Source of the DNA: a virus
IMG/VR virus record: IMGVR_UViG_3300017708_000734
Location: 1 to 45,200 of that record
Length of the DNA stretch: 45,200 bases
Reading direction: 5' to 3' (one strand)
Each line of letters begins with the position of its first letter. The stretch's first letter is position 1. Shown one piece after another: positions 5,767 through 29,105 of the stretch. A program made the position numbers and the translations under genes. The notes beneath the pieces were generated by a model. That model searched no databases and was not told the origin of the DNA. It worked only from the letters and a program-made list of their open reading frames with translations.

Positions 5767-5768
5767 AA

Positions 5769-6164: not shown

Positions 6165-6165
6165 C

Positions 6166-6360
6166 TTATTGACCAAAAAAGTTCAAACGAACTAATAAAC
6201 TTATGACAGCAGCACTTGTAATGATCATTATAGCCTCTAGCCTCTTTACTCTATTAAAAAGGTCTTTGAACTGTATTTCCATTTCAGTTTGTATTGCTAT
6301 TATGGTTTTTTCAATTTTATCAATCCTTTCATGTGCAGATTGTATAGTCCTCTTATTCAT
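6166..6360 (-). CDS. XhlA-like tail-anchored coiled-coil protein
   Basis: 64 aa, TAATG start overlap with the zinc-ribbon gene upstream. Residues 8-42 form a heptad-rich coil (RIDKIEKTIIAIQTEMEI...), followed by a C-terminal membrane span (IMIITSAAVISLLVRLNFFG). This is the pattern of XhlA/haemolysin-type small phage membrane proteins that work with holins. The last codons contain the variant palindrome at 6180-6193, so the protein's C-terminus and a possible regulatory site share the same DNA. Confidence 0.7.
   Translation of the reverse strand: MNKRTIQSAHERIDKIEKTIIAIQTEMEIQFKDLFNRVKRLEAIMIITSAAVISLLVRLNFFGQ
6180..6193. promoter_or_regulatory. dispersed palindrome, copy B (variant, inside a gene end)
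   Basis: AGTTCAAACGAACT keeps the outer arms AGTTC/GAACT but not the inner bases. On the minus strand it is followed by a TTTTT run. It lies in the last codons of the 64-aa gene and 16 bases before the start of the gene at 6164, the same relation to a gene boundary as the other copies. Confidence 0.5.
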
Positions 6361-10421: not shown

Positions 10422-12274
10422 TAATTATCCCCTCCTGTGTTAGCAGGTGTTATAGGGGTAAAATTACTGCCTGAGCTTAATATGCTTGTGCTAAACACGG
10501 TGGGCGCGACAGAATTACTATAGTTAAAAAAAGCTGTGTTTTGCGTATTAAATACTTGATTTACATTACTACCATTTGGTATTTGCTCGCTATTATTAAT
10601 TAAAAACCTATATTTGTTAGATCCAAAGGTTCCAACATTGCTTGATAAGTTGTTTTTATTTATAACAAAAACTCCGTGTTGAGTAGTGAATTGTGCAAAA
10701 TCTCCATCTCCACTTGTGGTCTCAATATTACCCATATGATAAACACGACCCTGAATAAATGCTGTAGTTCCATTTTCAAGAGTTCCATACACTTGAGCCA
10801 TATATCTCTCTGCATAAAAATTCGCATTTGTGTGCTGTTGGTTTTTGTTGATTTTTACGATACTATTATTGGAGTTGTATTGGGCTTGAGCATCGACCAA
10901 TATAATTTCCGTGCCTGTACCGCTGAGGTATATAAGATTATCATTTTGATCAACAGTTACACCATAACCAACTGAGGTTAAAAACCCAAATTCTGGAATG
11001 CTATGCTGAATAGCGCCCGTGGTTCTATTGATAAGATAGTTTTTGTTAGCGCCAGCAAAACCTTTAAATCCTGCTTCTTGAGCATATACTTTAATCTTAT
11101 TATCGGGAAGCCATACAGGAGAACTAACATCAATAAAAGGCTCATTAACGTTTGTAACATTAAATCCAATTCTTCTTTCAGTACCCAACGACATAGAACT
11201 GCCAGATATATCAACCTCCCAATACACAAGATCATTTTCAAGTTCTATGTGTATGTAAAATTTTGACGGATCGTCTTCGTGAGCGCCAATTCCATATTTT
11301 GAGAAGCCTTGAAAGAATAAATTTGTGGGCTGTGTTTGCACAGAAGTTGAAGAGAGAGCTATTGTATCCTCTACAGACCCTGTTAGTAAACTAATTTTGT
11401 ATAAATAAAACTTAACGATACCTCCCGAAGTAACATTATTTGTTACTGGGTCGTGAACGTCACCTACTGTAGTTACAGCCGTCAAGTAAACATACCCATT
11501 TTTATCAAAAAAATGACCTTGCCCATAACTTTGAAACGCAACCCCACTGCGCTCAAGATTAGGTGTAGAATCTGAAGCAACGCCAGCTTTTACGTTTATA
11601 TATCTACACCATTGAAACTGACCAGATGAATTGAATTTGCACACTCCTGCAGCAAAATCGTAACCTACGTCATAAGGAATACCAGTTGTCGCAAAGTCAA
11701 CGCTTCCTTCTGTATCTAAATTAAGAAGATATTTAGGGTAAACAATAGCATAGTAATTACCACCTAATTTAAACATTTTAGGATCAAAAGTTAATCTTTG
11801 ATTGGGAAAAGTTCTGGTTCCTACTGACATATCTCCATAAGTAGTATATTCTTTAGCCCAAGAAATACCTCCTGCTCTATTCATTTTTGCAAGAAACAAC
11901 TTGTTCCCTACTGTGGTTGGATGATTGTTGTCATAAAAATTTGTACAAAGGTATTCGTTATCATCAACCTGAGTTGCAGGTATCATATGTTTTGGATGTG
12001 CATATCCATTAACAGCTACATTGTTTACACCCCTACCCGGTGGTGTCCAAGTTGCAGTGCTTGTTGGCGCAACCCTAAAGAAAAAACTTTTTTCTGAAAG
12101 TTCAAAAGCAGCACTTTTTCCTCTATACTCAACTATAGATTGCTGATCTTGATCACCTTTGTTTACGAGAAGCCTAAAATCTGCATCGTTCATACCACAT
12201 AGGTCTTGATTGTCGCCACCGACCTCTAAGTGTATATCGTTTAAAGATAGGTTGCCACTAGTCGGAAGAGGCAT
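10418..12274 (-). CDS. tail fibre with MPLPTSG anchor and propeller-like body
   Basis: 618 aa. The N-terminal anchor MPLPTSGNLSLNDIHLEVGG, then DQQSIVEYRGKS, is shared with the 236-aa adhesin downstream. Residues 90-600 are beta-rich with recurring blades (YAIVYPKYLLNLDTEGS, GHFFDKNGYVYLTAV, VDQNDNLIYLSG, KFYIHIELEN) that look like a WD/YVTN-type propeller. It lacks the Kelch-like TTGNATDFGD motif of the 16.5-23.6 kb cluster. It is a likely receptor-binding fibre; its target cannot be told. Confidence 0.7.
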   Translation of the reverse strand: MPLPTSGNLSLNDIHLEVGGDNQDLCGMNDADFRLLVNKGDQDQQSIVEYRGKSAAFELSEKSFFFRVAPTSTATWTPPGRGVNNVAVNGYAHPKHMIPATQVDDNEYLCTNFYDNNHPTTVGNKLFLAKMNRAGGISWAKEYTTYGDMSVGTRTFPNQRLTFDPKMFKLGGNYYAIVYPKYLLNLDTEGSVDFATTGIPYDVGYDFAAGVCKFNSSGQFQWCRYINVKAGVASDSTPNLERSGVAFQSYGQGHFFDKNGYVYLTAVTTVGDVHDPVTNNVTSGGIVKFYLYKISLLTGSVEDTIALSSTSVQTQPTNLFFQGFSKYGIGAHEDDPSKFYIHIELENDLVYWEVDISGSSMSLGTERRIGFNVTNVNEPFIDVSSPVWLPDNKIKVYAQEAGFKGFAGANKNYLINRTTGAIQHSIPEFGFLTSVGYGVTVDQNDNLIYLSGTGTEIILVDAQAQYNSNNSIVKINKNQQHTNANFYAERYMAQVYGTLENGTTAFIQGRVYHMGNIETTSGDGDFAQFTTQHGVFVINKNNLSSNVGTFGSNKYRFLINNSEQIPNGSNVNQVFNTQNTAFFNYSNSVAPTVFSTSILSSGSNFTPITPANTGGDNY

Positions 12275-13543: not shown

Positions 13544-13559
13544 AAGTTCAAATGAACTT
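13544..13559. promoter_or_regulatory. dispersed palindrome, copy C
   Basis: AAGTTCAAATGAACTT, with only the central base pair breaking symmetry. It covers the stop codon of the 604-aa gene. On the minus strand it is followed by a run of Ts and then AGGAG and the ATG of the S74 fibre gene at 13526. Confidence 0.75.
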
Positions 13560-15372
13560 ATGCCGCATCCAATATGGTTCCGCCTTCAAATTCTTCTTGA
13601 TCGGGTTCTTCGTCATTATATACTGTATTTTCGCTTACATCAACTTCATCGTAGGTATTCGTTGCCAGTTCTTCTTGCAAGGGTGTGTATGTAATGCTTC
13701 CGCCTGATGTGTCCACTTCGGGCAATGGCTCCGTTGGAGCAATAACATCTGGCAATGTTTCTTCCCAAGTATTTTTTATACTTATACTAGAAGATACTTC
13801 AGATCCCGAAAAATCTCCTGATAAATTCAACGGAACAAAAGTATCAGTTATAGGTGGAGAATCTAAAGCAAAGTCTTCTTCTGCAAGCTGTGCAGGTAAG
13901 TCTGACCATACGTCATCAATAGGAACTCCAGAATCTGCTAAATCAACTGATTCAAAAGGATCTATGGTTACAAAAGCTGAAGGATTGACAAGATCGAATA
14001 CTTTAGATTGACCTGTGTTTGCAGTCATAAAGAAGTCTTCAGCAAGCACTACTACATCAACCCTCATCTTAACGTCAACAAAACCAACTGCTGTGGAAGC
14101 ACCAACGCCTATAATATCTTTGTACGTTGTTGAGAAGTTGTACTCTGTTATATCAGTTGTAGATGCTGTTACACTAAGCCCAGAGACTAAAACATTGGCT
14201 TCAGCCCTTATGTCACCTCCATCAAAAAGCTCTCCTATTGTGCCAACAAACCCAGAAGATACTTGCAGTTGTGTAATACTGATGACCTGATCGGTTACAG
14301 CAATTATAGTTGTGTCTTCTACTACTCCGTTGGCTTCTAGCCCTGTTTGATCGATGACAACTTCAAGAGATAATTCAAACAACCCAACGCTTGATGTGGC
14401 CTGCTGACCTACTACCGCCAGAACATTCTCAGTTGATAAAGTAACCTCACCTACGCTTGCGTCTGCTCTTAAATCTGGCAGTATTGATAAGGTGTTAGAA
14501 GTTATTGTACTTACAATTGGTTCACTTGTAGTCCCTTGAAGACCCGTTTGCGGCACATCAAGTTGTAGGTCTACATTAATATCACCTACGCTTGCAGCAG
14601 CCTCAAATCCATCTTGCAGCTCTACTGTCTCAAAGCGTATCGGCACACCAAGTTGGACTTCTGCCTCTACACCTGTAACCTCTAAGACACAATCTAATGA
14701 GAAATCTAAAGACCCTACAGCACCACTAAGGGGAGTTAGAGGTCTGGAGTCAGTAACAAGTCCAAGTGTACCGTGATCCTCTGGAATAGTGATGCCTAGG
14801 GCAATGTTTGGTGCGCCTACCTGACCTGTACCCTCTTCTCCAGTAACGTCAAAGAAGTGAACAAACCGTGCTTCGCCCACCCCACTTACACCAGAAAGAC
14901 CAGTTGTTTCTACGTTGCCTTCTATGAGTATAGTTATAAATTCAGCAACAGTTATAGAGTTACCCATACCATTGCCATGAACGGTACAGTAATATCTCAG
15001 TGAGTCAGGAGCATCTGCTGCCACAGTTATCTCTACTGTAGCGCCTGCATTACCTTGAACGCCTGTAATTATTACATTTGTAAGATAGCTATACCCATTG
15101 CCATCTTTAAATCTAAGAGGATGCCCTGTGTTGCTAACATCAGAAACATCAAAGGTGTACTTAGTGCCTCTCCTAAGAGTTAGGGCAGGGTTCTCCACAC
15201 CATCTATATAAAAACGATTTCCGCCGCCTGACGTTGCAGGCGCTACAGTTACGTTGCGTATAACGTCTGATTGTATTCCTGCCTTTCCCTCAACCCCAAA
15301 GGGAAATACCGAGCGGATTTCATCAAAGTCGTCTGGTATTGGACGTACTGCTAGGGGGTTAATACCAAACAT
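13558..15372 (-). CDS. large virion protein with cupredoxin-like domain and beta repeats
   Basis: 604 aa. Residues 53-142 match a cupredoxin (plastocyanin-like) fold: FYIDGVENPALTLRRGTKY, GHPLRF and YYCTVHGNGMG. The type-1 copper ligands all seem present: His84, Cys129, His132 and Met136. Residues 150-450 carry repeats of the form (T/A)GLxAxxSVGxxxVxxxxxxxVTG, about 45 residues each, probably stacked beta domains. The tail (480-604) is acidic and Ser/Thr-rich. It lies amid fibre genes, so it is probably a tail or fibre component. Copper binding is inferred from residues only. Confidence 0.75.
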   Translation of the reverse strand: MFGINPLAVRPIPDDFDEIRSVFPFGVEGKAGIQSDVIRNVTVAPATSGGGNRFYIDGVENPALTLRRGTKYTFDVSDVSNTGHPLRFKDGNGYSYLTNVIITGVQGNAGATVEITVAADAPDSLRYYCTVHGNGMGNSITVAEFITILIEGNVETTGLSGVSGVGEARFVHFFDVTGEEGTGQVGAPNIALGITIPEDHGTLGLVTDSRPLTPLSGAVGSLDFSLDCVLEVTGVEAEVQLGVPIRFETVELQDGFEAAASVGDINVDLQLDVPQTGLQGTTSEPIVSTITSNTLSILPDLRADASVGEVTLSTENVLAVVGQQATSSVGLFELSLEVVIDQTGLEANGVVEDTTIIAVTDQVISITQLQVSSGFVGTIGELFDGGDIRAEANVLVSGLSVTASTTDITEYNFSTTYKDIIGVGASTAVGFVDVKMRVDVVVLAEDFFMTANTGQSKVFDLVNPSAFVTIDPFESVDLADSGVPIDDVWSDLPAQLAEEDFALDSPPITDTFVPLNLSGDFSGSEVSSSISIKNTWEETLPDVIAPTEPLPEVDTSGGSITYTPLQEELATNTYDEVDVSENTVYNDEEPDQEEFEGGTILDAA

Positions 15373-15383
15373 TTAAATAGACC

Positions 15384-15683
15384 TTACGATTTAGACTCTA
15401 CCCAGTTATCAACCATCGCAGAAACCTCTGCATTAGTCATATCCCTGACATCCCCCGTTTCTTCGTCTTCTACTTGAAAAGTGTTTTTTGCATGTTGCGC
15501 TAGAATTTTTGCTTCTAGTTCAGCAGGGGTTAGCACTACTACTGTATTGGGTATATAAAATTCTGGATTGTCTCTTGTCCATCCTATTAACTTATTACCT
15601 TCAGCAAAGTATCCACCGTCATCTATCCAGTCTGGTGCCTTCATACCACCCGGAGTCATATGTAGTTTGTACTCAAGTATCAT
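15384..15683 (-). CDS. small hypothetical protein in fibre region
   Basis: 99 aa, GGAGG ribosome-binding site, overlapping the upstream gene by 11 bases. The first half is aromatic and Gly-rich (GGMKAPDWIDDGGYF, LIGWTRDNPEFYIP); the second half is a charged helix (LTPAELEAKILAQHAKN). This two-part form recalls small tail-fibre assembly or connector proteins, but I do not recognise a family. Confidence 0.6.
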   Translation of the reverse strand: MILEYKLHMTPGGMKAPDWIDDGGYFAEGNKLIGWTRDNPEFYIPNTVVVLTPAELEAKILAQHAKNTFQVEDEETGDVRDMTNAEVSAMVDNWVESKS

Positions 15684-16503
15684 CTTTTTCCTCCGACTTC
15701 TCTACTCTTAGCATATATTCTGGATTTAAGAAATCCGCTTTTCCAAATATTCTTTCTGCAGTCTTGTCTGCATTTTTGTAATACTTGTCTGCCATTTGAT
15801 CTAGAAACTCTTCCAAATCGTTAGAATGAGGCAGTACATGCTGTTTTATACGGTCTGCTGTATGTTGAAGATAGCCAGACACTTCCGTCATAGCCACTTG
15901 TGGATGCACACCGTATTGCTGCATGTATTCTATAGTAGCCGTTGAAGCACGACCACCATCCATAAGATTACGGTACATAAGCTCAAAACCTCTTCTAACA
16001 TGGTGACGCTTCTCCTCTCTTTCAAAAGCTTCTTCATCCCACTCATCTATGTCAAAGTTTTCTTTTACATTCTCATAGCTGTCTATAAGAACCGCAATAT
16101 CTTTAATAGAGCCGTTTATCTTATGCTCCATCATTGTAAGACCGTGTCGTGCCGCTTTTAACTCTGCTTCAGAAACAATGTCATCTTCTTCCTCAAGCTC
16201 CAAGATCTTTACACGTTGTTTGGCATGTCCTACCTGTGCCTCTGCAAGTGCCATCTTACGTTTCTCGACTTCTGCTGTGATCTGCCGAAGCATACGCATC
16301 GGTGAGTGACCGTTAAGCATCGTCAGTGTCATCATAGACAAAGTTGTTGCTGAGTTATTACGATCAAAAGCTCTAGTCGCCTGATCTATCTCTGGTAGCA
16401 TCTCTGCCACTCTAGCTGCCGCCACCTGATTTATATTCTCAGATGCCTCTATCGGCAGTGAAAATGTTATTGGTTTCTTTACTACGTTAGTCTTTTTTCC
16501 CAT
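15673..16503 (-). CDS. alpha-helical hypothetical protein
   Basis: 276 aa, almost entirely helical and acidic, with heptad-rich stretches at residues 80-125 and 140-180. It has no Gly-rich or beta repeat, unlike all its neighbours. AGGAGAGCG precedes the ATG. It follows the last Kelch-type gene and precedes the 99-aa and cupredoxin genes. Fibre chaperone or tail scaffold are possible readings. I do not recognise it. Confidence 0.65.
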   Translation of the reverse strand: MGKKTNVVKKPITFSLPIEASENINQVAAARVAEMLPEIDQATRAFDRNNSATTLSMMTLTMLNGHSPMRMLRQITAEVEKRKMALAEAQVGHAKQRVKILELEEEDDIVSEAELKAARHGLTMMEHKINGSIKDIAVLIDSYENVKENFDIDEWDEEAFEREEKRHHVRRGFELMYRNLMDGGRASTATIEYMQQYGVHPQVAMTEVSGYLQHTADRIKQHVLPHSNDLEEFLDQMADKYYKNADKTAERIFGKADFLNPEYMLRVEKSEEKDDT

Positions 16504-16512: not shown

Positions 16513-18576
16513 CTATGCTGCGTTTCCTGATGCACCGCCAAGAAGACCTCTAGCTACAGTCAGATCTCCAAGGTCAGTAGCGTTGCCTGTGGTTTGTATC
16601 ACAATATAATCAACTACATTTTGATGATTATTTCCATCAAGTATGCCTCCCCCAAATGCACCTCTAGTTCCATTTGAAACTCCTGACATATAAGTTCTTG
16701 CATTTGTAAGGTCTCCAAAGTCATTAGCATTAGCTGTTATTGCAACATTTACATATTCAATATCGTTAACACGAGAAAAATTTTGAGAAGACACTTTAGA
16801 GTAACCAATAGCAAATAAAGCTCTAATAGAGTCTGAAGCAGATCCACCAGCGGTCATTGGCCTATTTAAGTTTCCAAAAGTAGTAGCATTACCGGGGGTA
16901 GCGGCTGTAACGTATTCTATACCAGTTATGTTGTCAGACCTTCCTCCCGCTACTAACAATCTTGTGTCTCCACTTGACGCAACTCTTAAATCTTCTGTTA
17001 TAGTCATATCCCCAAAATCAGTTGTATTACCAGTTGTAGCAATAGTGATATATTCTATAACATTCATGAAAGTAGTGGTTACCCCATCGTACTCTCGTCC
17101 ACCAAACATAACACCGTAAGTGCCGTCACTCGCTCCTGTTGTGCCAATTATGCTAGCCGACATGTCACCAAAATCTTGTGCATTACCAGTAGTAGCAAAA
17201 GTTATATAATCCATATAATCTGCATAACCACCATTGGAAAATCCTAGAAATCCTCCAAAAAATACACCTCTTGTTCCATTGGAAGCACCTTGGTTTATAT
17301 AAGATGCACTCCCCCGCAAATCACCAAAATCAGAAGCATTACCAGTGGTAGATATGTCAATATAATCAATAGTGTTCTGATAGACACCATTGTCCCCTGC
17401 TCCACCTACAAATACGCCTCTATCACCGCCCCAAGTAAAAACAGATGAACTATTGCTTGTGACATTAACGTATGTATACTTATACCCCCCATTGGAGAGG
17501 CCAAGAGTTCCGTACACAATTACATCAGTTGGAGTCATTAAAATATTCTGTGAATTTTCTATAGAATATGGAGGGTCGCCTAAATTAACAGATGAAAGCA
17601 AAGTACCAGTGGTTATATCATATGGAGTAGATAAGAGAGTTTCGTGTAATATAGAGTCGCTTGTTCCTTGTAAGATATAACAAAGCTTTCCGTTATTTCT
17701 AAACCCTACACCATACGATGGAACACTTATATAAGTTCCAGTAGGGGTAATACCCATATCGTCTGACTCAAGTTGTTCACTAGTAGTTATACTGGTTATA
17801 TCGTAGTTTGTTCCTACCTCTACTTTGCAAACTCTTGATGTATGTTCTGATGCATACAAAACGCTACCATCTGGTGTCCAAGTGTAGCTCTTACCATTAC
17901 CACCAGCAGAGCCATCGAATCCATTCGCACCTGTTGTTTGAAAATACGAAGGAACAGAAGAAAGAGTACTTATATCATAGGCAGTGCTAAGTGTGAACGT
18001 ATACGCTCTCGCTCTTGGGCTACTTCCAGCAGGGGTTCTACACCAAATTAATAACTTCGTTCCATCTCCATTAAATGTCATGGCTCGAACGCCGCCTTGC
18101 TCTACATTTATATTTTTATAAATTGATTGGTTATAAGTTGCTGTAGACAAGTCGTATGCCGTACCTAAATCCCATTCCTCGAACAACACATCGTATTGAT
18201 TGGTATCAAGGGTAGCAACGAACCATTTAGTGCCGTTGCTATTGAATTGAGACTGGCTATGAAAACTAGTGAAGCCTGAAGCATTTTCTAAATCTTCAGT
18301 GTCTATAACTTGTCCTTTAGTGAAGGTACTCGCATAGACAGGAGGACTTCCTAACCAAGCTTTCCATTCGTTATTAATACGGACATAATATATACTAGCA
18401 TTATCATCGTACCATGTATCTCCATTTGATGGAATGGAGGGTGCGGTTCCCGATACTGTATGCTTAACACCAACTATACCGCTATTGGAACCTGCTATAT
18501 TTAATCCGTTAGGAAAATCTACAGTACCTGTTCCTGCAGCATTGGTAATGTCTTCTATTTCGTCAGCTTCGCTCAT
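16513..18576 (-). CDS. Kelch-type tail fibre 5 of 5, with an extra propeller-like insert
   Basis: 687 aa, the longest paralogue. The N-terminal anchor is ITNAAGTGTVDFPNGLNIAG and PSNGDTWYD. Residues about 90-380 hold four repeats with YDISTxx / YDITTGT, a second propeller-like unit absent from the other four. From about residue 395 there are six Kelch-like repeats (TTGNASDFGDL, TTGNAQDFGDM, TTGNTTDFGDM, TPGNATTFGNL, ITANANDFGDL, TTGNATDLGDL), separated by SNGTRGVFFGG-type strands. ATGA overlap with the paralogue upstream. It ends ASGNAA, followed by the AGGAG of the next gene. Likely receptor-binding. Confidence 0.8.
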   Translation of the reverse strand: MSEADEIEDITNAAGTGTVDFPNGLNIAGSNSGIVGVKHTVSGTAPSIPSNGDTWYDDNASIYYVRINNEWKAWLGSPPVYASTFTKGQVIDTEDLENASGFTSFHSQSQFNSNGTKWFVATLDTNQYDVLFEEWDLGTAYDLSTATYNQSIYKNINVEQGGVRAMTFNGDGTKLLIWCRTPAGSSPRARAYTFTLSTAYDISTLSSVPSYFQTTGANGFDGSAGGNGKSYTWTPDGSVLYASEHTSRVCKVEVGTNYDITSITTSEQLESDDMGITPTGTYISVPSYGVGFRNNGKLCYILQGTSDSILHETLLSTPYDITTGTLLSSVNLGDPPYSIENSQNILMTPTDVIVYGTLGLSNGGYKYTYVNVTSNSSSVFTWGGDRGVFVGGAGDNGVYQNTIDYIDISTTGNASDFGDLRGSASYINQGASNGTRGVFFGGFLGFSNGGYADYMDYITFATTGNAQDFGDMSASIIGTTGASDGTYGVMFGGREYDGVTTTFMNVIEYITIATTGNTTDFGDMTITEDLRVASSGDTRLLVAGGRSDNITGIEYVTAATPGNATTFGNLNRPMTAGGSASDSIRALFAIGYSKVSSQNFSRVNDIEYVNVAITANANDFGDLTNARTYMSGVSNGTRGAFGGGILDGNNHQNVVDYIVIQTTGNATDLGDLTVARGLLGGASGNAA

Positions 18577-19784
18577 GATGCCGCCCCTGAGCTTGCCCCC
18601 AAATTAGTTCTAGAATGTAACAAATCACCAAAGTCAGAAGAATTACCAAGGGTTTGAGTTGTCCAGTAGTCTATAGATCTACTAGCAAGCCAATTGCTGC
18701 TAGGAGCATAATACTGATAGCCACCTCCGTTTACGCACCTAGTGGAATTAGAGGTTCCTCCTGACCTTGCTCTGCCGTTTGAGCCAATACCATTATCAGA
18801 AAGATCTCCAAAATCTATAGCGTTACTAGGTGTGGCAATGGTTATATAGTCTATAACATTTGTAGTAGTATAAGCTAGGTTTGATGTCTCTCCTCCTGAA
18901 AAACAACCTCGCGTAGCATCACAACCACTAGCATAGCTGTGCCTGCTCACAGTTATATCTCCAAAGTCTGTAGCATTACCAAGAGTTTGAACCACTAAAC
19001 GATCTATACCGTTTAATGTTGTACCAAGAGTTTGCGGATAAGAACCACTTCCTTCTTTTCTGTTTAAACCAAATATAGCATAAGTTGCATTGCTTATTCC
19101 AATAGGAGTGCAGCCTGTTGTTAGGTCACCAAAATCAACGGCGTTTCCTGTTGTATCAATAGTTACATAATCCACAGTATTTAAAAATGTACTGTTAGAA
19201 ACAGAGGCTCCAGCAAATAAACCTCTTGCGCCATCACCTGCAGCCCCTCTTCTACCTGATACTGTCATGTCGCCAAACTCTGAACTATTGCTGGGGGTGG
19301 AGGGAGTTATGTAAAGAATACGGTTGTTTGTTCCTGAACCACTGCTGTCAGGATCTCCATCCTGAGCAACGCTGAAAATAATACGAGAACCACTGCTACA
19401 GGCTTTAGCTTCAAACGCTGACCCACTATGAAAATCACCAAAGTCTGAAGCGTTGCCTGTGGTAGTAATATCTATGTAGTCCATGTCTGTTGATGCTGCG
19501 CCAGTTCCATTAGAATAATCACCCAAGAATACACCTCGATCACCAAAAAAATCAGCAGCAGATATAGAAATAGTCGTTATAGTTCTCCAAGTATCATTAA
19601 CATACCTCTTTACAACGGAGTTTGTTGTGTCCCACCAGATGTCGCCTTCATTTGGCTGAACACTAGGTTCACTTGCACTTTCTGTATATCCCTGAACTAT
19701 AGAGTTACCTGCTATGGTAAAGCCTTGTGGCGTATCCGTTTCAGTTCCGTTGTTGCTTATAGTATTTACTTTTAATGTACTCAT
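18573..19784 (-). CDS. Kelch-type tail fibre 4 of 5
   Basis: 403 aa. The anchor VNTISNNGTETDTPQGFTIAG differs most from its paralogues; then PNEGDIWWDTTNSVVKRYVN. The body has six repeats (TTGNASDFGDF, TPSNSSEFGDM, TTGNAVDFGDL, TLGNATDFGDI, TPSNAIDFGDL, TLGNSSDFGDL) with intervening GARGLFAGA/TRGCFSGG strands, suggesting one six-bladed Kelch-like propeller. It ends SSGAAS, whose codons form the ribosome-binding site and ATGA overlap of the next paralogue. Confidence 0.8.
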   Translation of the reverse strand: MSTLKVNTISNNGTETDTPQGFTIAGNSIVQGYTESASEPSVQPNEGDIWWDTTNSVVKRYVNDTWRTITTISISAADFFGDRGVFLGDYSNGTGAASTDMDYIDITTTGNASDFGDFHSGSAFEAKACSSGSRIIFSVAQDGDPDSSGSGTNNRILYITPSTPSNSSEFGDMTVSGRRGAAGDGARGLFAGASVSNSTFLNTVDYVTIDTTGNAVDFGDLTTGCTPIGISNATYAIFGLNRKEGSGSYPQTLGTTLNGIDRLVVQTLGNATDFGDITVSRHSYASGCDATRGCFSGGETSNLAYTTTNVIDYITIATPSNAIDFGDLSDNGIGSNGRARSGGTSNSTRCVNGGGYQYYAPSSNWLASRSIDYWTTQTLGNSSDFGDLLHSRTNLGASSGAAS

Positions 19785-19798
19785 GATGCTGCTCCTGA
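19780..19798. repeat. 19-bp junction repeat between Kelch-type genes, copy 1
   Basis: On the minus strand this reads TCAGGAGCAGCATCATGAG. It encodes the last residues SGAAS, supplies the GGAG ribosome-binding site and contains the ATGA stop/start. An identical copy lies at 21033-21051, and close variants at the two other junctions (near 18573 and 22326). Confidence 0.85.
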
Positions 19799-21037
19799 CC
19801 CACCTGAAGTGTTTTCTACCCCTTTACCTGCAAGGTCAGTAAACTGTGTAGCATTACCTAATGTATCAAAAGATTGATATTCTCTAACTAATGTATAGTT
19901 AGGTGTTCCTATTACCTTGCCACAAGATGTTACGCAATAAGTACCATCGCTCATACAAGCATGACCGTTCCTTGCTACTGTCAAGTTTCCAAATGTTGTA
20001 GCATTACCTGTGGTCTGTATGGTGATATAAGCAGTATGTGAATTATATAATGTATTAACACTTCCTGAATTGTAATTTCCACCAGTTTCAATAAATCTTG
20101 TAGCATTAGCTGCTCCTGCGGCTAGTCTCATACTGTAGGTATAATCTCCAAAATCGGTAGCATCTCCAGTTGTTTGTATAGTAACGTAGTCTATTCTATT
20201 CGATCCTGAAGTACTAGATGAACCACCACTAGAAAATACCGCCCTTGTAGGATCATTTCCCGAAGCTGGACCTCTGCGAGCTTGTGTTAAATCACCAAAG
20301 TTTTGAGCGTCTTGAGAGGTTTCAATACTGCAATAACCAATATCTGCATGAAATGAGCCTGTTCCGTTGTTACCAGCATGATAGTAGCCAGCCTGAAAGA
20401 CACATCTATCTCCGTCACTTATAGAGCCGTTGTTCATCCAATTTTGATTTGTGTCGTTATCATAACTATAATAAGCGTCACTATTATCTGACAACCACGA
20501 AACTAAACTCCCGTGAGATTGAGCCGATCCTAAAGTAGCACAATTAAATTTGACAATAATTTGATAAGAAGTATTCCCACTATTATTACCACCAATTTGC
20601 AAGCAGTCAGAACCTCTAGTTCCATTAGCCTGATACCCAATAGCGGCTGTATAAAAAGATGAAAATATATCATCAGCTATAGTTGTGCTGCCTTGGGTCG
20701 ATATATCAAAGTATTGTAAGTTTTCACTTCCAACTTTAGTTGCGCTTTCTCCAGTTCTACCTCCTGAACTCCATCCTCTAGATCCTCTAGTAGGTATTGG
20801 AGGAATTGTTCCTAACCAGTTTTTCCAATTATTATCCATACGAACATAGTAAATTTCGTTTGTTGTCTCGTACCAAGTATCCCCATTAGCAGGTGTAGAA
20901 GGCTCTGTACCTGATACGGTATGTGTAACTCCTGTAATGCCACTGTCTGATCCTGCTATATTAATACCATTAGGAAAATTTACTGCTGCAGACCCAGCAG
21001 CGTTTGTAAGTTTCTTTACTTTAACAAAATCACTCAT
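19781..21037 (-). CDS. Kelch-type tail fibre 3 of 5
   Basis: 418 aa. Anchor KKLTNAAGSAAVNFPNGINIAG, then PANGDTWYE and a WKNWLG tail, of the same subtype as paralogue 5. It has six repeat positions, but the first three are divergent (STQGSTTIADD, ATLGSAQSHGS, ETSQDAQNFGD) and the last three are typical (TTGDATDFGDY, TTGNATTFGNL, TLGNATQFTDL). Divergence of half the propeller suggests drift or recombination in the receptor-facing part. It ends GGSGAAS at the ATGA junction. Confidence 0.8.
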   Translation of the reverse strand: MSDFVKVKKLTNAAGSAAVNFPNGINIAGSDSGITGVTHTVSGTEPSTPANGDTWYETTNEIYYVRMDNNWKNWLGTIPPIPTRGSRGWSSGGRTGESATKVGSENLQYFDISTQGSTTIADDIFSSFYTAAIGYQANGTRGSDCLQIGGNNSGNTSYQIIVKFNCATLGSAQSHGSLVSWLSDNSDAYYSYDNDTNQNWMNNGSISDGDRCVFQAGYYHAGNNGTGSFHADIGYCSIETSQDAQNFGDLTQARRGPASGNDPTRAVFSSGGSSSTSGSNRIDYVTIQTTGDATDFGDYTYSMRLAAGAANATRFIETGGNYNSGSVNTLYNSHTAYITIQTTGNATTFGNLTVARNGHACMSDGTYCVTSCGKVIGTPNYTLVREYQSFDTLGNATQFTDLAGKGVENTSGGSGAAS

Positions 21038-21051
21038 GATGCTGCTCCTGA
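21033..21051. repeat. 19-bp junction repeat between Kelch-type genes, copy 2
   Basis: Identical to 19780-19798. As the same sequence flanks a whole gene on both sides, recombination between copies could add, delete or swap an entire fibre gene without disturbing translation. Confidence 0.85.
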
Positions 21052-22326
21052 TAGACTACCCATGGCAGCCGTAGACCCTGCACTGCCAGTAAACAGATCT
21101 CCATGATCTGTAGCGTTTCCTGTAGTGGCTATAGTTACTATATCTATTTCTTGGAAAAGATATGGACTTTGACTACTATTTCTTCCAGCTATAATAAGTC
21201 CTTTCGTTTCATTATTTGTACATGTTACAGACCTTTTAACGCGAGTTAAATCTCCAAAATCAGAAGCGTTGCCAGTTGTGTCTATTGTCGCATACTCAAT
21301 AGTATTGCTATCACCAGATCCTGCAACTACTCCTCCGCAAAACAAAATTCTGGTAGAATTAGCGCAGGAACCATGTTGGGTTCTTGCAGCTAATAAATCT
21401 CCAAAATCAGTAGAGTTACCAGTTGTATCTATTGTGATGTAATCCAAAACATTGCCATTTAAATTTCCACCAGAAAAGGGGTTATTTCTATATATTCCTC
21501 CACTAAATATTCCTCTGGTTGCATTAGCTGCACCTCCTAATTTAGATCTAGTATCTCTGCCATAAGCGCTCATATCCATGTCACCAAATAAAGTAGCATT
21601 ACCAGTAGTGGCTATAGTAAAATAATGCATTTGTTTTGTGTACTCGCCAGCAGAACTAGCACTATTTGCAGCCGAAGCGTTCCATACACCTCCTCCATAA
21701 ACAGCTCTTACGGAATTGTGACACGCTGCTCCATACCGTCTACCTTGTTTTCCGTCAGAAGCATTAAAATCTCCAAAGTCAGTAGCATTACCAGTAGTTG
21801 ATATAGTCACATAGTCTATAGTGTTTCCATAAATAGGGTCACCAGTAGGTACTGCATTAAGTAGTTCATTATTTCCTCCACCTATAAACATTCCTCTAGA
21901 ACCGTTAGAGGCTCCTTCAGTAGCATACCTACCTTCTGTTAAATTTCCAAAATCAGAAGCGTTGCCAGAGGTAGTTATGTCAAAGTAAAGAATAACATTG
22001 TGATAAGCAGGAAAACCAGAATTACTACCACCTCCTGCACCTCCTGCAGCTAAAGCTCTATCGCCTACTCCAAGGGCTGTAGAGGCATCTACTGAAGCAA
22101 GTGTCACGCTTTTCCATTGACTGTTGATGTATATTTTAGCTTTGGAGTTGGTGGTATCCCACCACAATGAACCATTACTAGGATTGCTTGGTTGCGTAGC
22201 AGAAGATGTATATTCATATGTGTTTAGTGTAGATAAAGCTGCTCCGTTATATTTTAACCCATCAGAGAAGTTAGGAGCGCCGTTTCCTGCTACGTTTGTT
22301 ATATCGTCTACTTTAATTGTTGTCAT
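21034..22326 (-). CDS. Kelch-type tail fibre 2 of 5
   Basis: 430 aa from ATG 22326, which sits in a TAATG overlap with the upstream gene and has AGGAG nine bases before; the frame is open further upstream but that is inside the preceding gene. Anchor KVDDITNVAGNGAPNFSDGLKYNG and PSNGSLWWDTTNSKAKIYINSQW. Six repeats (TSGNASDFGNL, TTGNATDFGDF, TTGNATLFGDM, TTGNSTDFGDL, TTGNASDFGDL, TTGNATDHGDL). The C-terminus LSGAAS carries the next gene's ribosome-binding site. Confidence 0.8.
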   Translation of the reverse strand: MTTIKVDDITNVAGNGAPNFSDGLKYNGAALSTLNTYEYTSSATQPSNPSNGSLWWDTTNSKAKIYINSQWKSVTLASVDASTALGVGDRALAAGGAGGGSNSGFPAYHNVILYFDITTSGNASDFGNLTEGRYATEGASNGSRGMFIGGGNNELLNAVPTGDPIYGNTIDYVTISTTGNATDFGDFNASDGKQGRRYGAACHNSVRAVYGGGVWNASAANSASSAGEYTKQMHYFTIATTGNATLFGDMDMSAYGRDTRSKLGGAANATRGIFSGGIYRNNPFSGGNLNGNVLDYITIDTTGNSTDFGDLLAARTQHGSCANSTRILFCGGVVAGSGDSNTIEYATIDTTGNASDFGDLTRVKRSVTCTNNETKGLIIAGRNSSQSPYLFQEIDIVTIATTGNATDHGDLFTGSAGSTAAMGSLSGAAS

Positions 22327-23591
22327 TATGGCGCTCCTGAAAATCCGCACGACAAACCTTTGGCTGATGTTAAATTACCAAAGTCCGAAGCATTGCCAGT
22401 TGTCTGTATCGTAACATATCCAATCCTATTATATCTAGTGTAATTAGGAGGAGGGCCACTACCGCCAGCCATTACCATTCTTGTGCCATTAGAAGTACCT
22501 GCTGGACTGCTTGATAAATCAAGAGCATCACCAAAATCTGAGGCATTTCCTGTTGTTTGTATGGTTATGTATTCCATATTATTTGATCCGTAAGCTCCAT
22601 TATAACCTTGAGCAAAAACTCCCCTAGTAGCATCTGAACCAGTTGCTCGTTTAAAACCACGTTGATACATTTCACCAAAGTATGTAGCATTTCCAGCGGT
22701 CGCCATAGTTATATACTCAGTCGATTTGTCTTGGCGGGTAACAGCAGAACCAGTTATACTTGTTGTAGCTAAACTATACACACCTCTCGTGGCATCTTGC
22801 ACACCATAACAATTATAACAGTCAACAGTTGTATTTCCAAAATCAGTCGCATTACCAGTTGTATCTATTGTAACACGATCTATTACATCACCATAATTGT
22901 TACTCCATGTTGATGATCCGTCAAATTTACCACCGACAGTAAGACCATAAGTACCATCTGAAAGTGCTGCACTATAATACCTTGCTACACTTAATGAACC
23001 AAAGCTTGTAGCGTTTCCTGTCGTTGAAATTGTTATATAATCTATTGAACCATTAGCATCTCCATTACTTAACCTTCTCCCAATTATTAATCCACGATAT
23101 ACATTAGAACATCCAGCAGCTTCTCTTGTTTCGTTAACCAAGTTTCCAAAATCAGTAGCGTTCCCTGTCGTTGAGATTGTTATATACTCTATATCATTAT
23201 TTAAATTTGAAGTTGGTGTACCATAACCACCAACAAATACACCTCTGTTGCCAAAAGAGGCGGTTGGGATATAAAAGCTTAATCCTCCCAAGCTTACAGT
23301 TGCTTCTAGATTATTAGAACCTAATGCCACCAAAACACTTACAATTGAAGAGTCAACGCTTTCTAGCGTAACCGTTCTCCAAGCATTGTTTGCGTATATT
23401 TTTACTACAGAGTTAGTAGTATCCCACCATAATGCACCATTGTTTGGTGAGCTTGGTGCTGTAGCACTCTCTATGTATTGGTATGTGTTAAGAGAAGAGA
23501 CGGAATTTCCAGCGTATTTTATGCCATCTTCGAAGTCAGGAGCGCCTGTACCCGCTGCGTTAGTTATTTGATTTACCTTTAAGATAGGCAT
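22326..23591 (-). CDS. Kelch-type tail fibre 1 of 5 (first in transcription order)
   Basis: 421 aa from ATG 23591, with GGAG eight bases upstream and the dispersed palindrome copy D just before it. Anchor KVNQITNAAGTGAPDFEDGIKYAG and PNNGALWWDTTNSVVKIYANNAW, near-identical in form to paralogue 2, so these two are probably the most recent duplicates. Six repeats (TTGNATDFGNL, TTGNATSFGSL, TTGNATDFGNT, TAGNATYFGEM, TTGNASDFGDA, TTGNASDFGNL). It ends GFSGAP, with CAGGAGCGCC as the next ribosome-binding site. Confidence 0.8.
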   Translation of the reverse strand: MPILKVNQITNAAGTGAPDFEDGIKYAGNSVSSLNTYQYIESATAPSSPNNGALWWDTTNSVVKIYANNAWRTVTLESVDSSIVSVLVALGSNNLEATVSLGGLSFYIPTASFGNRGVFVGGYGTPTSNLNNDIEYITISTTGNATDFGNLVNETREAAGCSNVYRGLIIGRRLSNGDANGSIDYITISTTGNATSFGSLSVARYYSAALSDGTYGLTVGGKFDGSSTWSNNYGDVIDRVTIDTTGNATDFGNTTVDCYNCYGVQDATRGVYSLATTSITGSAVTRQDKSTEYITMATAGNATYFGEMYQRGFKRATGSDATRGVFAQGYNGAYGSNNMEYITIQTTGNASDFGDALDLSSSPAGTSNGTRMVMAGGSGPPPNYTRYNRIGYVTIQTTGNASDFGNLTSAKGLSCGFSGAP

Positions 23592-23602: not shown

Positions 23603-23620
23603 AAAGTTCAATTGAACTTT
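23603..23620. promoter_or_regulatory. dispersed palindrome, copy D (18 bp, perfect)
   Basis: AAAGTTCAATTGAACTTT, identical to copy A. It overlaps the stop of the Gly-rich adhesin gene (TAA at 23619-23621). On the minus strand it runs into TGGAGAAACAAATG, the start of the first Kelch-type gene. It thus marks the head of the five-gene array. Confidence 0.8.
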
Positions 23621-24596
23621 ATGAATATATAGTTTCCGAGCCACCTGAATATTCAATTTCAGTATTGGTTGATGGAAAGGCCCTATTGAGACCCCAAATT
23701 ATACGAACTCTTCCAGCTCCTCCCCCACCAGAACGATTTCCACCGCTTACAGTCAAATCATCATCATCAGCACCGCCGCCGCCTCCATACGCTCCACCAA
23801 CAGAACCAAAGTTGGTAGAAACACCATTAGTTCCTCCTGAACCTCCATTTGCGCCGAATGCTCCGCTTGTTCCTTCTCCAAATATTCCTACTCCGCCACC
23901 ACCAAAGCAATTCGATGAGTTTGTATTCCCACCGCCTCCACCGCCTCCAGAGCCTGCACTTCCTCCAACGTTAGAGTTTCCTGAAGCACCGTTACCGCCA
24001 TTACCTGAATACCCTCCAGCACCACCGCCTGCTCCTCCAGCGTTGTTGTAATTAGATTCTCCTCCAAATCCTCCGTTTCCTCCACCTTCTGATAGGGTTC
24101 CACTATTTCCAGATCCTCCAGAAGCAGAAAATCCGCTACCACTTGATGGAGCAGCACTGCCTCCACCACCGCCGCCCCCAAGTAACTTAGTATTGTTCCA
24201 AAAATAAGATTGCCCCCCAACACCTCCTTGAGCTTGATTATTACTACCACCAAGACCTCCCACACCCGCTCTAACAGTCCATCCTGTGCCCGGAGTTGTA
24301 GAGAAGTTATTCATATAACTTAAACCACCGCCTCCACCGCCGCCCCCACCACGGTTAGACCCAGTACCAGCAGCACCGCCTCCACCACCAATTACTAAAA
24401 CACTTACTGATGTAACCCCGGCAGGAACAATCCATGCATAGTCGCTTGAACTAGCGTTAAACTGCGCCCCACCAGATACTGGTACGTTTAAATTTAAATA
24501 AGGAGCAGTGATATCCCAAACCCCATTTGGGTTTTCAGAATAATCTTTTGGTCCTCCGCCGCCTATTATGCTACCGTTGCTACGCCACCTACTCAT
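23619..24596 (-). CDS. Gly-rich tail adhesin
   Basis: 325 aa. A short N-terminal part (SRWRSNGSIIGGGGPKDYSENPNGVWDI) is followed by WIVPAGVTSVSVLVIGGGGG and about 200 residues of Gly-rich motifs with runs of up to nine glycines. It closes with GGGGAGRVRIIWG, then RAFPSTNT, a C-terminal signature I know from marine phage proteins. By analogy with gp38-type adhesins the Gly motifs would form polyproline-II strands holding variable receptor-binding loops. Its GGN-repeat DNA is prone to slippage. Confidence 0.75.
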   Translation of the reverse strand: MSRWRSNGSIIGGGGPKDYSENPNGVWDITAPYLNLNVPVSGGAQFNASSSDYAWIVPAGVTSVSVLVIGGGGGAAGTGSNRGGGGGGGGGLSYMNNFSTTPGTGWTVRAGVGGLGGSNNQAQGGVGGQSYFWNNTKLLGGGGGGGSAAPSSGSGFSASGGSGNSGTLSEGGGNGGFGGESNYNNAGGAGGGAGGYSGNGGNGASGNSNVGGSAGSGGGGGGGNTNSSNCFGGGGVGIFGEGTSGAFGANGGSGGTNGVSTNFGSVGGAYGGGGGADDDDLTVSGGNRSGGGGAGRVRIIWGLNRAFPSTNTEIEYSGGSETIYS

Positions 24597-24982: not shown

Positions 24983-27900
24983 CTATCCGAATACCATTGC
25001 CATTGCTATGGCTTTACCTGTTGATGCTGCATTGTTTAAACCTAATTGGCTCTTAAAGTTTGCAGGTGATAAATACCTTATGTAACCATCCTGTGAACAA
25101 TATACCCTGTCAATAGTTCCTGCTGTACCAGATGTAGTATTAATCCAGCCAAACTGAGCATATCCATTTCCTTGAGTTCTTACAATTTTATTTGCTTCAT
25201 CGTTTCTACCAGTATGTAAATTTAGTCCATCTAAAGTATCAGCATCTATATTTAGCGCATCAATGTCAGCTTTTGTTTGATCTGCGGTAGCACCGCTTTC
25301 AATGCCATCCAACTTATTTTTAAGTGTAGTAGTAAAATTCTTTTGAGTTAGCCCTCCATCACCTACTGAGTAGGTAGTATTAGCATCATCTACCCAAGCA
25401 TAATCACTTCCATTCCAAGAAAGTATTTGATTACTTCCTGCTGAAGATTGATTGAGGTGTGAATTTACATCACTATCTGCATACCCTGCAGATACAGCGG
25501 CCCAAGTTAAACCTCCTGTATTGCCTGACTGAGCTTGTAAGAAATAACCATTACTAGGACTGTTGCTTACTTTTAAGTTGGCTTCATCTACAACGTTATC
25601 TACTATCACAGTCGCGCCGTCAGCGGTACTTGTTACTTCCCCTGAGTGGTTGGGGTGTGTATAGTTATTAGCACTGGAAGCTATACCATTTAATTTAGAT
25701 AAAAGTGTATCTGTAAAAGCGTTAGTATCACTATTATTTTCATAAGCTGTCTTTATCTCTGCATCAGTTTGATCTGCTGTAGCATTACTTTCTATGGCAT
25801 CTAGCTTTACTTTATCCGCAGAGGCCATAAGTCCACTAGTTGAATTACTAGCCGCCACTATATTGTTAATATGTATATTGGTAGCGCCCTGATCTGTAGT
25901 CCAGTTAATATGCTCGTTTGCTACATAATCTAGTAAATTATCATGACTAACAATTGCCTCTATATCAGACGCTGATTGATCTGCAGTGGCACTTGCCTCA
26001 ATTGCGTTAAGCTTACTAAGCAAAGTGTCTGTAAAAGCATTAGTATCACTGTTGTTCTCATAGGCAGTTTTTATCTCCGCATCAGTTTGATCTGCTGTTG
26101 CGCTAGCCTCTATATTGTCTAACTTGGTATGATCATTGTCTGTAAAAACATTGCTGTCTGTTGCACTATCGACTAGCGTTCTTATTTCAGCAGCAGTTTG
26201 GTCTGCTGTAGCTGCCGATTCAATACCATCTAATTTGGTTCCATCCGCTGACACATCTCTACCATCAACATTTCCTGTTACGGTTATGTCTCCATTTACG
26301 GTTAGCCCTGCGAAAGTGGGAGTTGCTGTAGTAGCAATTGCTTGATCTGCCGAAAAGGTAGTACCACTAAGTGTAAGCCCTGTTCCTGCCGCATATACAG
26401 TTGTTTCTGCTACTTCTGAGAAAATTATGTTGGTTGTCCCAAAAACAATAGCTCCTGATGTGCTGAGAACATCCAAATGACCTGAGTTTGTGTCTCCTTC
26501 TTTAATAAAAAATGCGTCACCTTTACCAAACGCATCAGGATCAGAAGGAGCATAGCTGTCTGTATCAGTAGTCCTTGTTAAGACCCATGCGGTAGAGCCA
26601 TCACCAGTAGTGGTTACCTTGTAAACTCCATTGTGCGCTTGATTGGTTTGATTAGCGACAAGAACTCTATCGTTCAAAGAAAGAGTGACACCATCCAATT
26701 CTATGGCTGCATTTGACCCAGCATTAGTTAGTGTGGCTCCGACACCAGACGAACCGTTATTATATGTAACGTTTAGGTTGCTTGGATGCTCAACTCGAAC
26801 AGGCTGATGATAATGTAATCCTGCAGAAGCAATAGTGTCCACATACTGCTTTGTAGCCGCCTGTAATGATGCAGTAGGGTCTGCATGTAAAACAAGACTT
26901 CCAGCTAGCGTACCGCCAGCCAAAGCCAGCTTTGCATCAAGTGTTGTTTGAAGATTGTCTACATTGCTTATAATATGATTATGGCTGTCATCTGCTATTA
27001 CAATAGCATCATAAGTTCCAGATGCATCTCCACCAAAAACAGTAGATGTGTTAAGAAAATATGTAGCTTCATTACCATCTAATAAATCGGCATTTAAACC
27101 AGAAGTTGGGCCATCTACAGTCTTTATTGCTGTAAGTATTTCAGCAGCAGTTTGGTCTGCTGTAGCAGATGTTTCTATACCGTTTAACTTGGTGTGGTCA
27201 TCATCAGTAAATACATTACTGTCTGTAGCCGCCTCTACTGCCGCTCTTATCTCTGCGTCTGTTTGATCTGCCGTAGCACTGGCCTCTATACCTGTAAGCT
27301 TGGTTCTTTCAGAGGTTGTCATAAACAGGTTTGTAGATCCCTGAGTTATATCATCAGAGTCCCCAGAAAGCTCACTTAAAGCATCTTGTGTAGCAAGCTG
27401 TGTATCAACATAAGCTTTGACAGATTGTTGAGTTGGCAGCTTGGTCGCTGAATCTGATGTCATATCATCTTCATCAACAACAAAACTCATACTTGCCGTT
27501 GTGGTGTCGCCTTCCATAACAGCGCCTGCAGCAGCCACATTGGTGGCATCAGTAACATCCGCACTTGTCTCTATGCCTGTAAGCTTTGTTTCAAAAGCGT
27601 CTGTAAAGGCATTAGTGTCGCTATTGTTTTCGTATGCGGTTTTAATTTCTGCATCTGTCTGATCAGCCGTAGCAGAAGTCTCTATAGCATCTAATTTAGT
27701 ATGATCCGCATCAGTGAAGACATTGCTATCCGTGGCGCTGTCAACAAGAGTTCTTATTTCTGCAGCCGTCTGGTCAGCAGTTGCGCTAGCCTCTATGCCG
27801 TTTAATTTAGTTTGAAGCGCGTCTGTAAAAGCATTTGTATCCGAATTATTCTCATACGCTACTTTTATCTCTGCATCTGTTTGATTACCTGTAGCTCCAG

Positions 27901-28306
27901 ACTCAATGGCATCTAGTTTTGTGTGATCTGCATCGGTAAAAACATTACTATCTGTAGCACTACCAACTAGGGTTCGTATTTCTGCGGCTGTTTGATCTGA
28001 TGTAGCTCCAGACTCCACTCCGTCTAATTTGGTTCCGTCTGCTGAAACATCTCTCCCATCTACTGTACCAGTTACGGCAATATTCCCAGAGCTGTCCTCT
28101 TCAACTAATTTAATCCAATTACCTGCATGTGAATAGTAAGCTCTTCCTGTTGCGTGAACGTGTGCAAACATACCGTGATATGTGCTTGCTGAAGGTAGAT
28201 CAGCTTCAGTTGCATACACATTTGCGAATAATAGTGGGTTTGCGCCAAAATCTTTGGCTCCTGCACCACCTACATCGCCAAATTTTCTATTATTTGATTT
28301 AACCAT
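24983..28306 (-). CDS. very large repeat-rich tail fibre
   Basis: 1107 aa, the largest gene in the window. Eleven copies of a roughly 25-residue unit (SATADQTDAEIKTAYENN / SATADQTAAEIRTLVDS) alternate with KLDGIE/KLNAIE linkers, giving a long probably trimeric shaft. A middle domain at about residues 480-650 (TKQYVDTIASAGLHYHQPV, DRVLVANQTNQAHNGVY) matches a module seen in cyanophage-type fibres. The C-terminus (VYCSQDGYIRYLSPANFKSQLGL) is short and has no S74 domain. The DNA of the repeat units is also nearly identical over tens of bases. Confidence 0.8.
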   Translation of the reverse strand: MVKSNNRKFGDVGGAGAKDFGANPLLFANVYATEADLPSASTYHGMFAHVHATGRAYYSHAGNWIKLVEEDSSGNIAVTGTVDGRDVSADGTKLDGVESGATSDQTAAEIRTLVGSATDSNVFTDADHTKLDAIESGATGNQTDAEIKVAYENNSDTNAFTDALQTKLNGIEASATADQTAAEIRTLVDSATDSNVFTDADHTKLDAIETSATADQTDAEIKTAYENNSDTNAFTDAFETKLTGIETSADVTDATNVAAAGAVMEGDTTTASMSFVVDEDDMTSDSATKLPTQQSVKAYVDTQLATQDALSELSGDSDDITQGSTNLFMTTSERTKLTGIEASATADQTDAEIRAAVEAATDSNVFTDDDHTKLNGIETSATADQTAAEILTAIKTVDGPTSGLNADLLDGNEATYFLNTSTVFGGDASGTYDAIVIADDSHNHIISNVDNLQTTLDAKLALAGGTLAGSLVLHADPTASLQAATKQYVDTIASAGLHYHQPVRVEHPSNLNVTYNNGSSGVGATLTNAGSNAAIELDGVTLSLNDRVLVANQTNQAHNGVYKVTTTGDGSTAWVLTRTTDTDSYAPSDPDAFGKGDAFFIKEGDTNSGHLDVLSTSGAIVFGTTNIIFSEVAETTVYAAGTGLTLSGTTFSADQAIATTATPTFAGLTVNGDITVTGNVDGRDVSADGTKLDGIESAATADQTAAEIRTLVDSATDSNVFTDNDHTKLDNIEASATADQTDAEIKTAYENNSDTNAFTDTLLSKLNAIEASATADQSASDIEAIVSHDNLLDYVANEHINWTTDQGATNIHINNIVAASNSTSGLMASADKVKLDAIESNATADQTDAEIKTAYENNSDTNAFTDTLLSKLNGIASSANNYTHPNHSGEVTSTADGATVIVDNVVDEANLKVSNSPSNGYFLQAQSGNTGGLTWAAVSAGYADSDVNSHLNQSSAGSNQILSWNGSDYAWVDDANTTYSVGDGGLTQKNFTTTLKNKLDGIESGATADQTKADIDALNIDADTLDGLNLHTGRNDEANKIVRTQGNGYAQFGWINTTSGTAGTIDRVYCSQDGYIRYLSPANFKSQLGLNNAASTGKAIAMAMVFG

Positions 28307-28313: not shown

Positions 28314-29105
28314 TCATATCATTACATATCTACCGCCAGATTGAACGGTTACAGTTACACCACTTTGTATAGTTATAGGACCAACAGAGAAAGCACTTTG
28401 TGTTGAGCTAACTGTGATATTAGATGTAACTGTTCTTGAAGGTATAACTGTTATAGCGTCCAGACTGGCGCTTCCTCCCCCTGAACCCCCATCTATAAAA
28501 CTTAATGTTCCGCTTCCGTTTGTGCCAAGAACTTGACCGCTTGTTCCATCTGTAGAGGGCAAATTAAAATTATTACCAAAAGTAGAAAGGTTAGTATTAA
28601 ATATACCATACTCAACAACCTCTACTATATCGTCTAAGTCTGCTGCGTCCGAAAGCAAGATTGATGTCCCATTAGTCGCTGTATAGTCCGAACCAGTTAA
28701 CTTTGCTCCATTAAAGAAAACATCAACAGCGCCCACAACATAATTCAAAGTATACGTGGTTTGACCTGCGGTAGAAGTAAATTTTGTTGAGTTGTAAGCG
28801 TTGCTAGAAAGAACAAGGTCTGCAGCAGAGGGGCTAATAAAAACTTCTGCATTTCCTGTCAGGTTAAGGAGAGAACCTGTAGAGCTGGATGTAAGGCTTC
28901 TGGTGAGAGTGGTCCCAGTTGAGTTGTATATTCCTGCTCCTATCTCCCAAGAAGTACCATCCTCAATGACGTATCTAACCTCATCACCATCCGACACTCC
29001 AGCAGCCGCAAAAGTTTGATAGCCCACTGCGGCTTGTCCCAAAGATATATCGCCATTTCCAGTGGTCGTGGTATTAACTTTTACTCTGTCTGCGAAGGTA
29101 ACCAC
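28314..29105 (-). CDS. tail fibre/connector protein, GTG start
   Basis: 263 aa. The start is GTG at 29105, with GGAGGTG about seven bases upstream. It begins VTFADRVKVNTTTTGNGDISLG and contains GDEVRYVIEDGTSWEIGAGIY and LNYVVGAVDVFFNGAKL, an N-terminal fibre module shared by many marine phages. The C-terminal third is Ser/Gly-rich then beta (FSVGPITIQSGVTVTVQSGGRY). It likely links the tail to the 1107-aa fibre encoded next. Confidence 0.7.
   Translation of the reverse strand: MVTFADRVKVNTTTTGNGDISLGQAAVGYQTFAAAGVSDGDEVRYVIEDGTSWEIGAGIYNSTGTTLTRSLTSSSTGSLLNLTGNAEVFISPSAADLVLSSNAYNSTKFTSTAGQTTYTLNYVVGAVDVFFNGAKLTGSDYTATNGTSILLSDAADLDDIVEVVEYGIFNTNLSTFGNNFNLPSTDGTSGQVLGTNGSGTLSFIDGGSGGGSASLDAITVIPSRTVTSNITVSSTQSAFSVGPITIQSGVTVTVQSGGRYVMI

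Follow-up and report, generated by a model that had tools for sequence, protein, structure and literature searches.

Why would a single phage carry five similar fibre genes side by side, and what would the five products do together? A preliminary description of the locus considered here had proposed a tandem set of interchangeable receptor-binding proteins with a common anchor and a six-bladed propeller each, which would either give one virion several specificities or store alternatives. In what follows, the window is the whole stretch of DNA that was analysed, a linear virus record of 45.2 kb. The nearest match of its terminase large subunit is that of phage 023Pt_psg01 (60% identity), followed by those of the SAR11 phages HTVC027P (56%) and HTVC023P (53%). 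Identities of this order (53-60%) make a relationship of the virus with the HTVC023P-type podoviruses probable. The five consecutive ORFs occupy 16513-23591 on the minus strand, inside a minus-strand block of structural genes, and are tandem paralogues. We named them gA to gE in the order of transcription:

gA, 22326-23591, minus strand: alpha-type anchor and six-unit kelch head; 421 aa from the ATG, or 425 aa from an alternative TTG at 23603; the sibling L009 has a close homologue.
gB, 21034-22326, minus strand: alpha-type anchor and predicted six-bladed kelch head (AlphaFold2 and Foldseek); 430 aa.
gC, 19781-21037, minus strand: beta-type anchor and kelch head of six units, the first of them degenerate; 418 aa.
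gD, 18573-19784, minus strand: gamma-type anchor and six-unit kelch head; 403 aa.
gE, 16513-18576, minus strand: beta-type anchor, an extra domain of about 300 aa and then a predicted six-bladed kelch head; 687 aa.

Identity to gA ranges from 34% to 44% among the other proteins of the array. gA and gB overlap by 1 nt (TGATG), and the remaining three junctions are 4-nt ATGA overlaps; such overlapping start and stop codons suggest that the translation of gA-gE is coupled. A scan for promoters and terminators gave no excess over shuffled sequences.

Behind its N-terminal anchor each protein has six repeated units, each about 50 aa long and bearing the motif GG...IDYITIxTTGNATDFGDL. Precisely, the unit HMM counted six units in gA, gB, gD and gE and five in gC, whose degenerate first unit brings the number to six by eye, so that the five paralogues with six kelch-like units each are confirmed. 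The repetition is far beyond chance: in the DNA beneath it, a 65-nt repeat occurs in 21 copies with identities of 60% or more, and the unit counts of the relatives, given below, point the same way. A kelch beta-propeller consists of four-stranded blades closing into a ring, with six blades in the Keap1 class. As relatives we considered the best 80 loci per query, taken from assembled contigs, which gave 542 complete ORFs with at least two units from 181 related loci, not dereplicated, as some loci share contigs. Exactly 6 units were counted in 484 of the 542 ORFs, 12 units in 19 and 18 units in 2, the rest having mostly 3-5; closed six-bladed rings would give such a quantisation in sixes. Repeats break assemblies, and the contig of the sibling L009 ends just inside its second gene. 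The proteins with 12 or 18 units (in L130, L144, L148, L163, L171 and others) apparently have two or three propellers per chain and are often the last of a trio. Very long runs of kelch matches were also seen, at about 51.7-71.8 kb of the L081/L123 contig (G003) and at about 48.6-66.8 kb of the L051 contig (G002); both far exceed six propellers per phage, the run in G003 being roughly 20 kb long. Heads split as 4+3 or 4+2 units over two ORFs, in the second gene of L124/L126 and in the gamma gene of L156, are probably due to frameshifts, either real or of assembly, and are rare exceptions to intact heads.

The fold was predicted with AlphaFold2 for gB (pLDDT 82) and gE (pLDDT mostly >90 over the C-terminal ~300 aa). 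Run on Foldseek, both models matched six-bladed kelch domains (Keap1, KLHL12 and the designed SAKe6) with target-normalised TM scores mostly of 0.83-0.90, the best being 0.90 for gB and 0.88 for gE. According to these models the heads of gB and gE are six-bladed kelch propellers, as had been expected, and neither was given a non-propeller fold; the unit HMM finds the same units in gA, gC and gD. The fold is thus like that of Keap1, KLHL12 and SAKe6, from which the proteins of the window differ in having no significant sequence match, in being encoded by viral tandem genes, in context and in presumed function. In fact, no curated kelch family scored above its cut-off (only Kelch_2 was reported for gB, below threshold, at E 0.1), and a PDB sequence search gave no significant match (best E 0.31). 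DNA and protein searches of a phage collection with the kelch genes of the window, as well as a search with the head of one relative, gave no significant match either; the head of a second relative retrieved only a remote kelch-like protein of cyanophage S-SKS1. This S-SKS1 match (L087, HQ633071; about 4850-6226) falls where no gene is annotated, near an annotated protein in which YGYFGGG is repeated about eight times. Relatives of one head are nevertheless encoded in 438 viral stretches, and arrays of at least three genes are the commonest state in the kelch-head group. The tandem set, previously called unusual, is therefore unusual for cultured phages but not for this group.

Between its anchor and its propeller, gE has a further domain of about 300 aa (residues ~76-375), absent from the preliminary description. 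A scan of viral contigs with this domain gave no relatives; weak relatives are found in Roseobacter phages and others. AlphaFold2 gave no clear fold for it, and our guess would be a second propeller.

The anchors, about 70-80 aa long, are not of one kind. The WWD-type motif that had been ascribed to all five proteins holds for gA, gB and gD (W-W-D), but gC and gE have W-Y-E/D instead, and the N-termini of the relatives fall into three recurring, paralogous forms, with the following consensus sequences:

alpha: KVDTVVNLAGTGKPNF...STLNL.EYT
beta: KITDRAGTGAP.F..G.N.GGSDSGL
gamma: MSTIKVNTIDNNG...FPNKL.VRGNAIEQGYT

The types are homologous to one another, with a between-type identity of about 43%, and their first ~36 residues are of low confidence in AlphaFold2. 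With HMMs of the anchor types seeded from two arrays (L022 and L030), the arrays read abg, aabbgg, aabgbg, abgbg, agb or agbb, and the window reads a-a-b-g-b (2:2:1). After dereplication, each of the 29 complete arrays contained all three types, whereas 5000 shuffles gave on average 10.8 such arrays and never more than 19. The set of 29 is partly circular in that the types of the L015-like clade were named by position, the second anchor of this clade scoring about equally as alpha and beta. When the L015-like clade and the seed arrays were left out, all three types were still present in 16 of 16 arrays, and an intact aabgbg array on a Porticoccaceae MAG contig is an independent case. The order of the anchors is near-fixed, each six-slot subtype being conserved in order, and two more anchor families of kelch arrays also form position-specific trios. 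This non-equivalence of the anchors was not part of the preliminary description.

The heads do not follow their anchors. On the anchor tree the type labels change 3 times, against 44.8 for shuffled labels, and on the head tree 39 times, against 45.5; the first figure is partly built in, because the types were assigned from the anchors, and it is the contrast with the head tree that matters. We also considered whether the heads are orthologous by position and rejected it, the position labels being no better on the head tree than shuffled ones. Same-slot anchors are far more alike than off-slot anchors. In L022, L027 and L030, identity within a slot is 91-94% for the anchors and 44-46% for the heads, which are thus as unlike as random heads (43%); the corresponding values are 85% and 47% in six three-slot arrays and 56% and 51% in the more diverged L015-like clade. 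For L018 and L019 they are 87% and 61%, the latter because two of the six slots still have a common head. Over 16 arrays, the cross-slot correlation of between-phage distances was 0.81-0.83 for anchors and from -0.03 to 0.02 for heads. Nearly identical heads are also found on different anchor types, as direct swaps: slot 4 of L022 (beta) and slot 5 of L027 (gamma) have heads 89% identical on anchors 47% identical, and similar cross-type head pairs are L014 (alpha) with L016 (beta) and L024 (alpha) with L040 (beta).

The same can be followed between the window and its sibling. The head of gA differs from that of its homologue in L009 by 16 amino acids in 310 codons, with 39 synonymous codon differences, whereas the anchor, less alike than the head, has 12 amino-acid and 27 synonymous differences in 80 codons. 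The flanking genes of the two viruses are 68-82% identical in DNA, and the next gene of L009 begins with a gB-type anchor. Anchors on quite different heads exist as well (gamma of L016, alpha of L040), and DNA identity rises toward the anchor/head junction. No within-array pair of heads exceeds 75% identity (0 of 138). From these comparisons, fixed slots with head swapping between phages are well supported. The claim of an interchangeable set thus stands in part: the heads do swap on an evolutionary scale, as trees, identities and distances indicate, but the five proteins are not equivalents on one anchor.

A parallel case occurs in the relatives named by the terminase, whose structural block contains tandem proteins with Gly-rich heads, three in 023Pt_psg01 and four in HTVC023P (gp59-gp62). 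Among the best 80 viral loci with Gly-rich relatives there were 16 complete arrays, ten of them with exactly three genes, and with few exceptions the N-termini are of three kinds in a fixed order (MSKIEV.., M[AT]S.IKV.N.. and MSE[VI]KVNK[IL][ST]PRT..). These are therefore, like gA-gE, tandem paralogues of the structural block with three fixed N-terminal types; they differ in their Gly-rich heads and in a different anchor domain, and they are annotated only as hypothetical or structural. The Gly-rich array of L246 has a first protein of 938 aa and one more gene; judging by its length, the former could have arisen by fusion of the trio's first two proteins.

The tandem set lies beside tail-fibre-like genes. 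The neighbours are the following:

28314-29105, minus strand: 263-aa protein; homologues precede most arrays, and its N-terminus is like that of HTVC023P gp58; candidate hub.
24983-28306, minus strand: tail fibre protein of 1107 aa, upstream of the array (phrog_21412, E 8.7e-122).
23619-24596, minus strand: Gly-rich protein of 325 aa, directly upstream of gA.
15673-16503, minus strand: 276-aa gene just downstream of the array; homologues follow most arrays; weak phrog_1409 match; by its position, a possible assembly factor.
15384-15683, minus strand: 99-aa gene, next downstream; homologues follow most arrays.

A 122-aa protein is also encoded upstream, with the Gly-rich protein and the tail fibre, and HTVC023P gp58 itself sits ahead of the Gly-rich array of HTVC023P. 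The Gly-rich gene differs in copy number between close relatives, with one copy upstream of gA in the window and two in L009 (5999-8001). Beyond the 276-aa and 99-aa genes, fibre- or connector-like proteins follow. One of these, a tail fibre/connector-like protein by family match (13558-15372, minus strand), contains within its N-terminal ~145 aa the sequence YYCTVHGNGMGN, which we take to resemble a cupredoxin-type copper-binding motif. Two further proteins of the window (9212-9922 and 10418-12274, minus strand) have a common N-terminus, MPLPTSG.LSL.DI, but their bodies differ: that of one is Gly-rich, and that of the other has a weak match to a beta-propeller (SBBP) family. From their sequences, the pair is a further example of unlike heads on the same anchor.

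We consider it likely that the locus encodes a modular adhesin array with several slots. Its three non-equivalent anchors would assemble with one another, perhaps as a heterotrimer, and recombination would exchange the heads. Each gene would encode a slot-specific anchor fused to a six-bladed propeller head, and the overlapping genes would presumably be translated together, so that all heads would be made at once. The anchors would be structural parts inherited as a set and the heads the variable recognition parts, moving between phages and between slots via recombination near the anchor/head junction. Alpha, beta and gamma anchors would co-assemble in one complex, perhaps an alpha:beta:gamma heterotrimeric tip with three different heads, and arrays of five or six genes would supply two tips or mixtures. 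To the heterotrimer itself we would give about an even chance or slightly less: if the stalk were a heterotrimer, it would be clear why three homologous anchors are needed together whatever the head fold, and a 1:1:1 complex of three consecutive virophage tail proteins is a precedent (PMC12724248), but the unequal type counts (2:2:1 in the window, agbb, abgbg) argue against strict pairing into full heterotrimers. The co-inheritance of the anchors could also come from vertical descent alone. Display on the virion and receptor binding of the heads are presumed from the genome context.

The unequal counts would be easier to accept in a branched complex of homotrimers, where each gene gives its own homotrimeric fibre and every anchor type has a different docking site, one of three, on a common hub, as in the Ackermannviridae, the heads still being swapped. 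We hold this to be a serious possibility, if rather short of an even one: multi-adhesin phages whose N-termini are conserved and whose C-termini vary are known to use this mechanism (PMC11414711), and the conserved order within each six-slot subtype agrees with it, but the branched model does not itself explain why there are three types in each of several anchor families and with either of two head folds that are unrelated, and it leaves the mutual homology of the three anchors unexplained. This homology, together with heads that look interchangeable, would also suit equivalent fibres competing for the same attachment site, with a random mixture on each virion; we consider this unlikely, since the three types always occur together in a near-fixed order and same-slot anchors are so much closer than off-slot ones.

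Among the PHROG families, the anchor gave weak matches to one labelled 'minor head protein', which would agree with products that decorate the capsid or have another role in the virion than that of tail adhesins, but the neighbours are tail fibre or baseplate-connector-like proteins and the WWD module weakly matches annotated tail proteins of other phages, and we regard this reading as quite improbable. Very improbable, in our opinion, is the store of alternatives suggested earlier, with one or few products in use and the rest a silent or switchable reservoir (by phase variation or a diversity-generating retroelement). Recombination of heads among slots and phages, and the dissimilarity of heads within arrays, would be in its favour; against it, start and stop codons overlap, the frames are intact in nearly all arrays, the paralogues of the relatives, inspected for decay, being almost all intact at the sequence level, and the head of gA differs from that of L009 mostly at synonymous codons. 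Moreover, no long inverted repeats were found in the array region and no reverse transcriptase among the window genes scanned, the record being a 45-kb fragment for which a distant gene is possible.

Tandem adhesin genes as such are known. In the branched tailspike (TSP1-4) complex of Ackermannviridae and in multi-RBP Klebsiella phages, whole adhesin modules are acquired by recombination (PMC11414711). The window is like them in having several tandem adhesin genes with conserved N-terminal and variable C-terminal parts; unlike them, its heads are of one kelch fold with no depolymerase signature found, and its short anchors are homologous to one another and fall into three types. Scans of gA-gE against Pfam and PHROG brought up no gp10-like XD or TD docking domain. 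In virophage DSLV2, three consecutive paralogous tail proteins are described as forming a 1:1:1 heterotrimer that binds cyanobacterial cells (PMC12724248), and the likeness lies in consecutive paralogous genes needed together, as compared with all three anchor types in every complete array here and five genes in the window. DSLV2 differs in its small gp37-like proteins without propeller heads and in being a virophage and not a tailed phage, and the consulted parts of that source report no head exchange (PMC12724248). We found no description of kelch arrays of this kind in the open-licence literature. The kelch array is a case of the already known modular multi-RBP theme, to which it adds a three-anchor rule and a free exchange of heads that we did not find described.

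With this rule, five similar fibres become fixed slots of three types with swappable heads. It holds across many contigs of marine viruses and for two head folds that are unrelated to each other, of which one occurs in cultured SAR11 phages. It is conceivable, with a little less than an even chance, that a large marine phage group builds obligately heterotrimeric tips from three paralogous anchors with exchangeable propeller or Gly-rich heads; if this were true, one fibre would have three specificities and natural recombination would give new combinations, that is, a combinatorial adhesin system. The rule gives a sequence signature for annotating many 'hypothetical' adhesins, and it makes testable both whether heterotrimeric fibres are made by tailed phages and how phages with small genomes keep pace with variable host surfaces. 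It also suggests that the multi-headed binding tips of marine phages are put together from exchangeable components.
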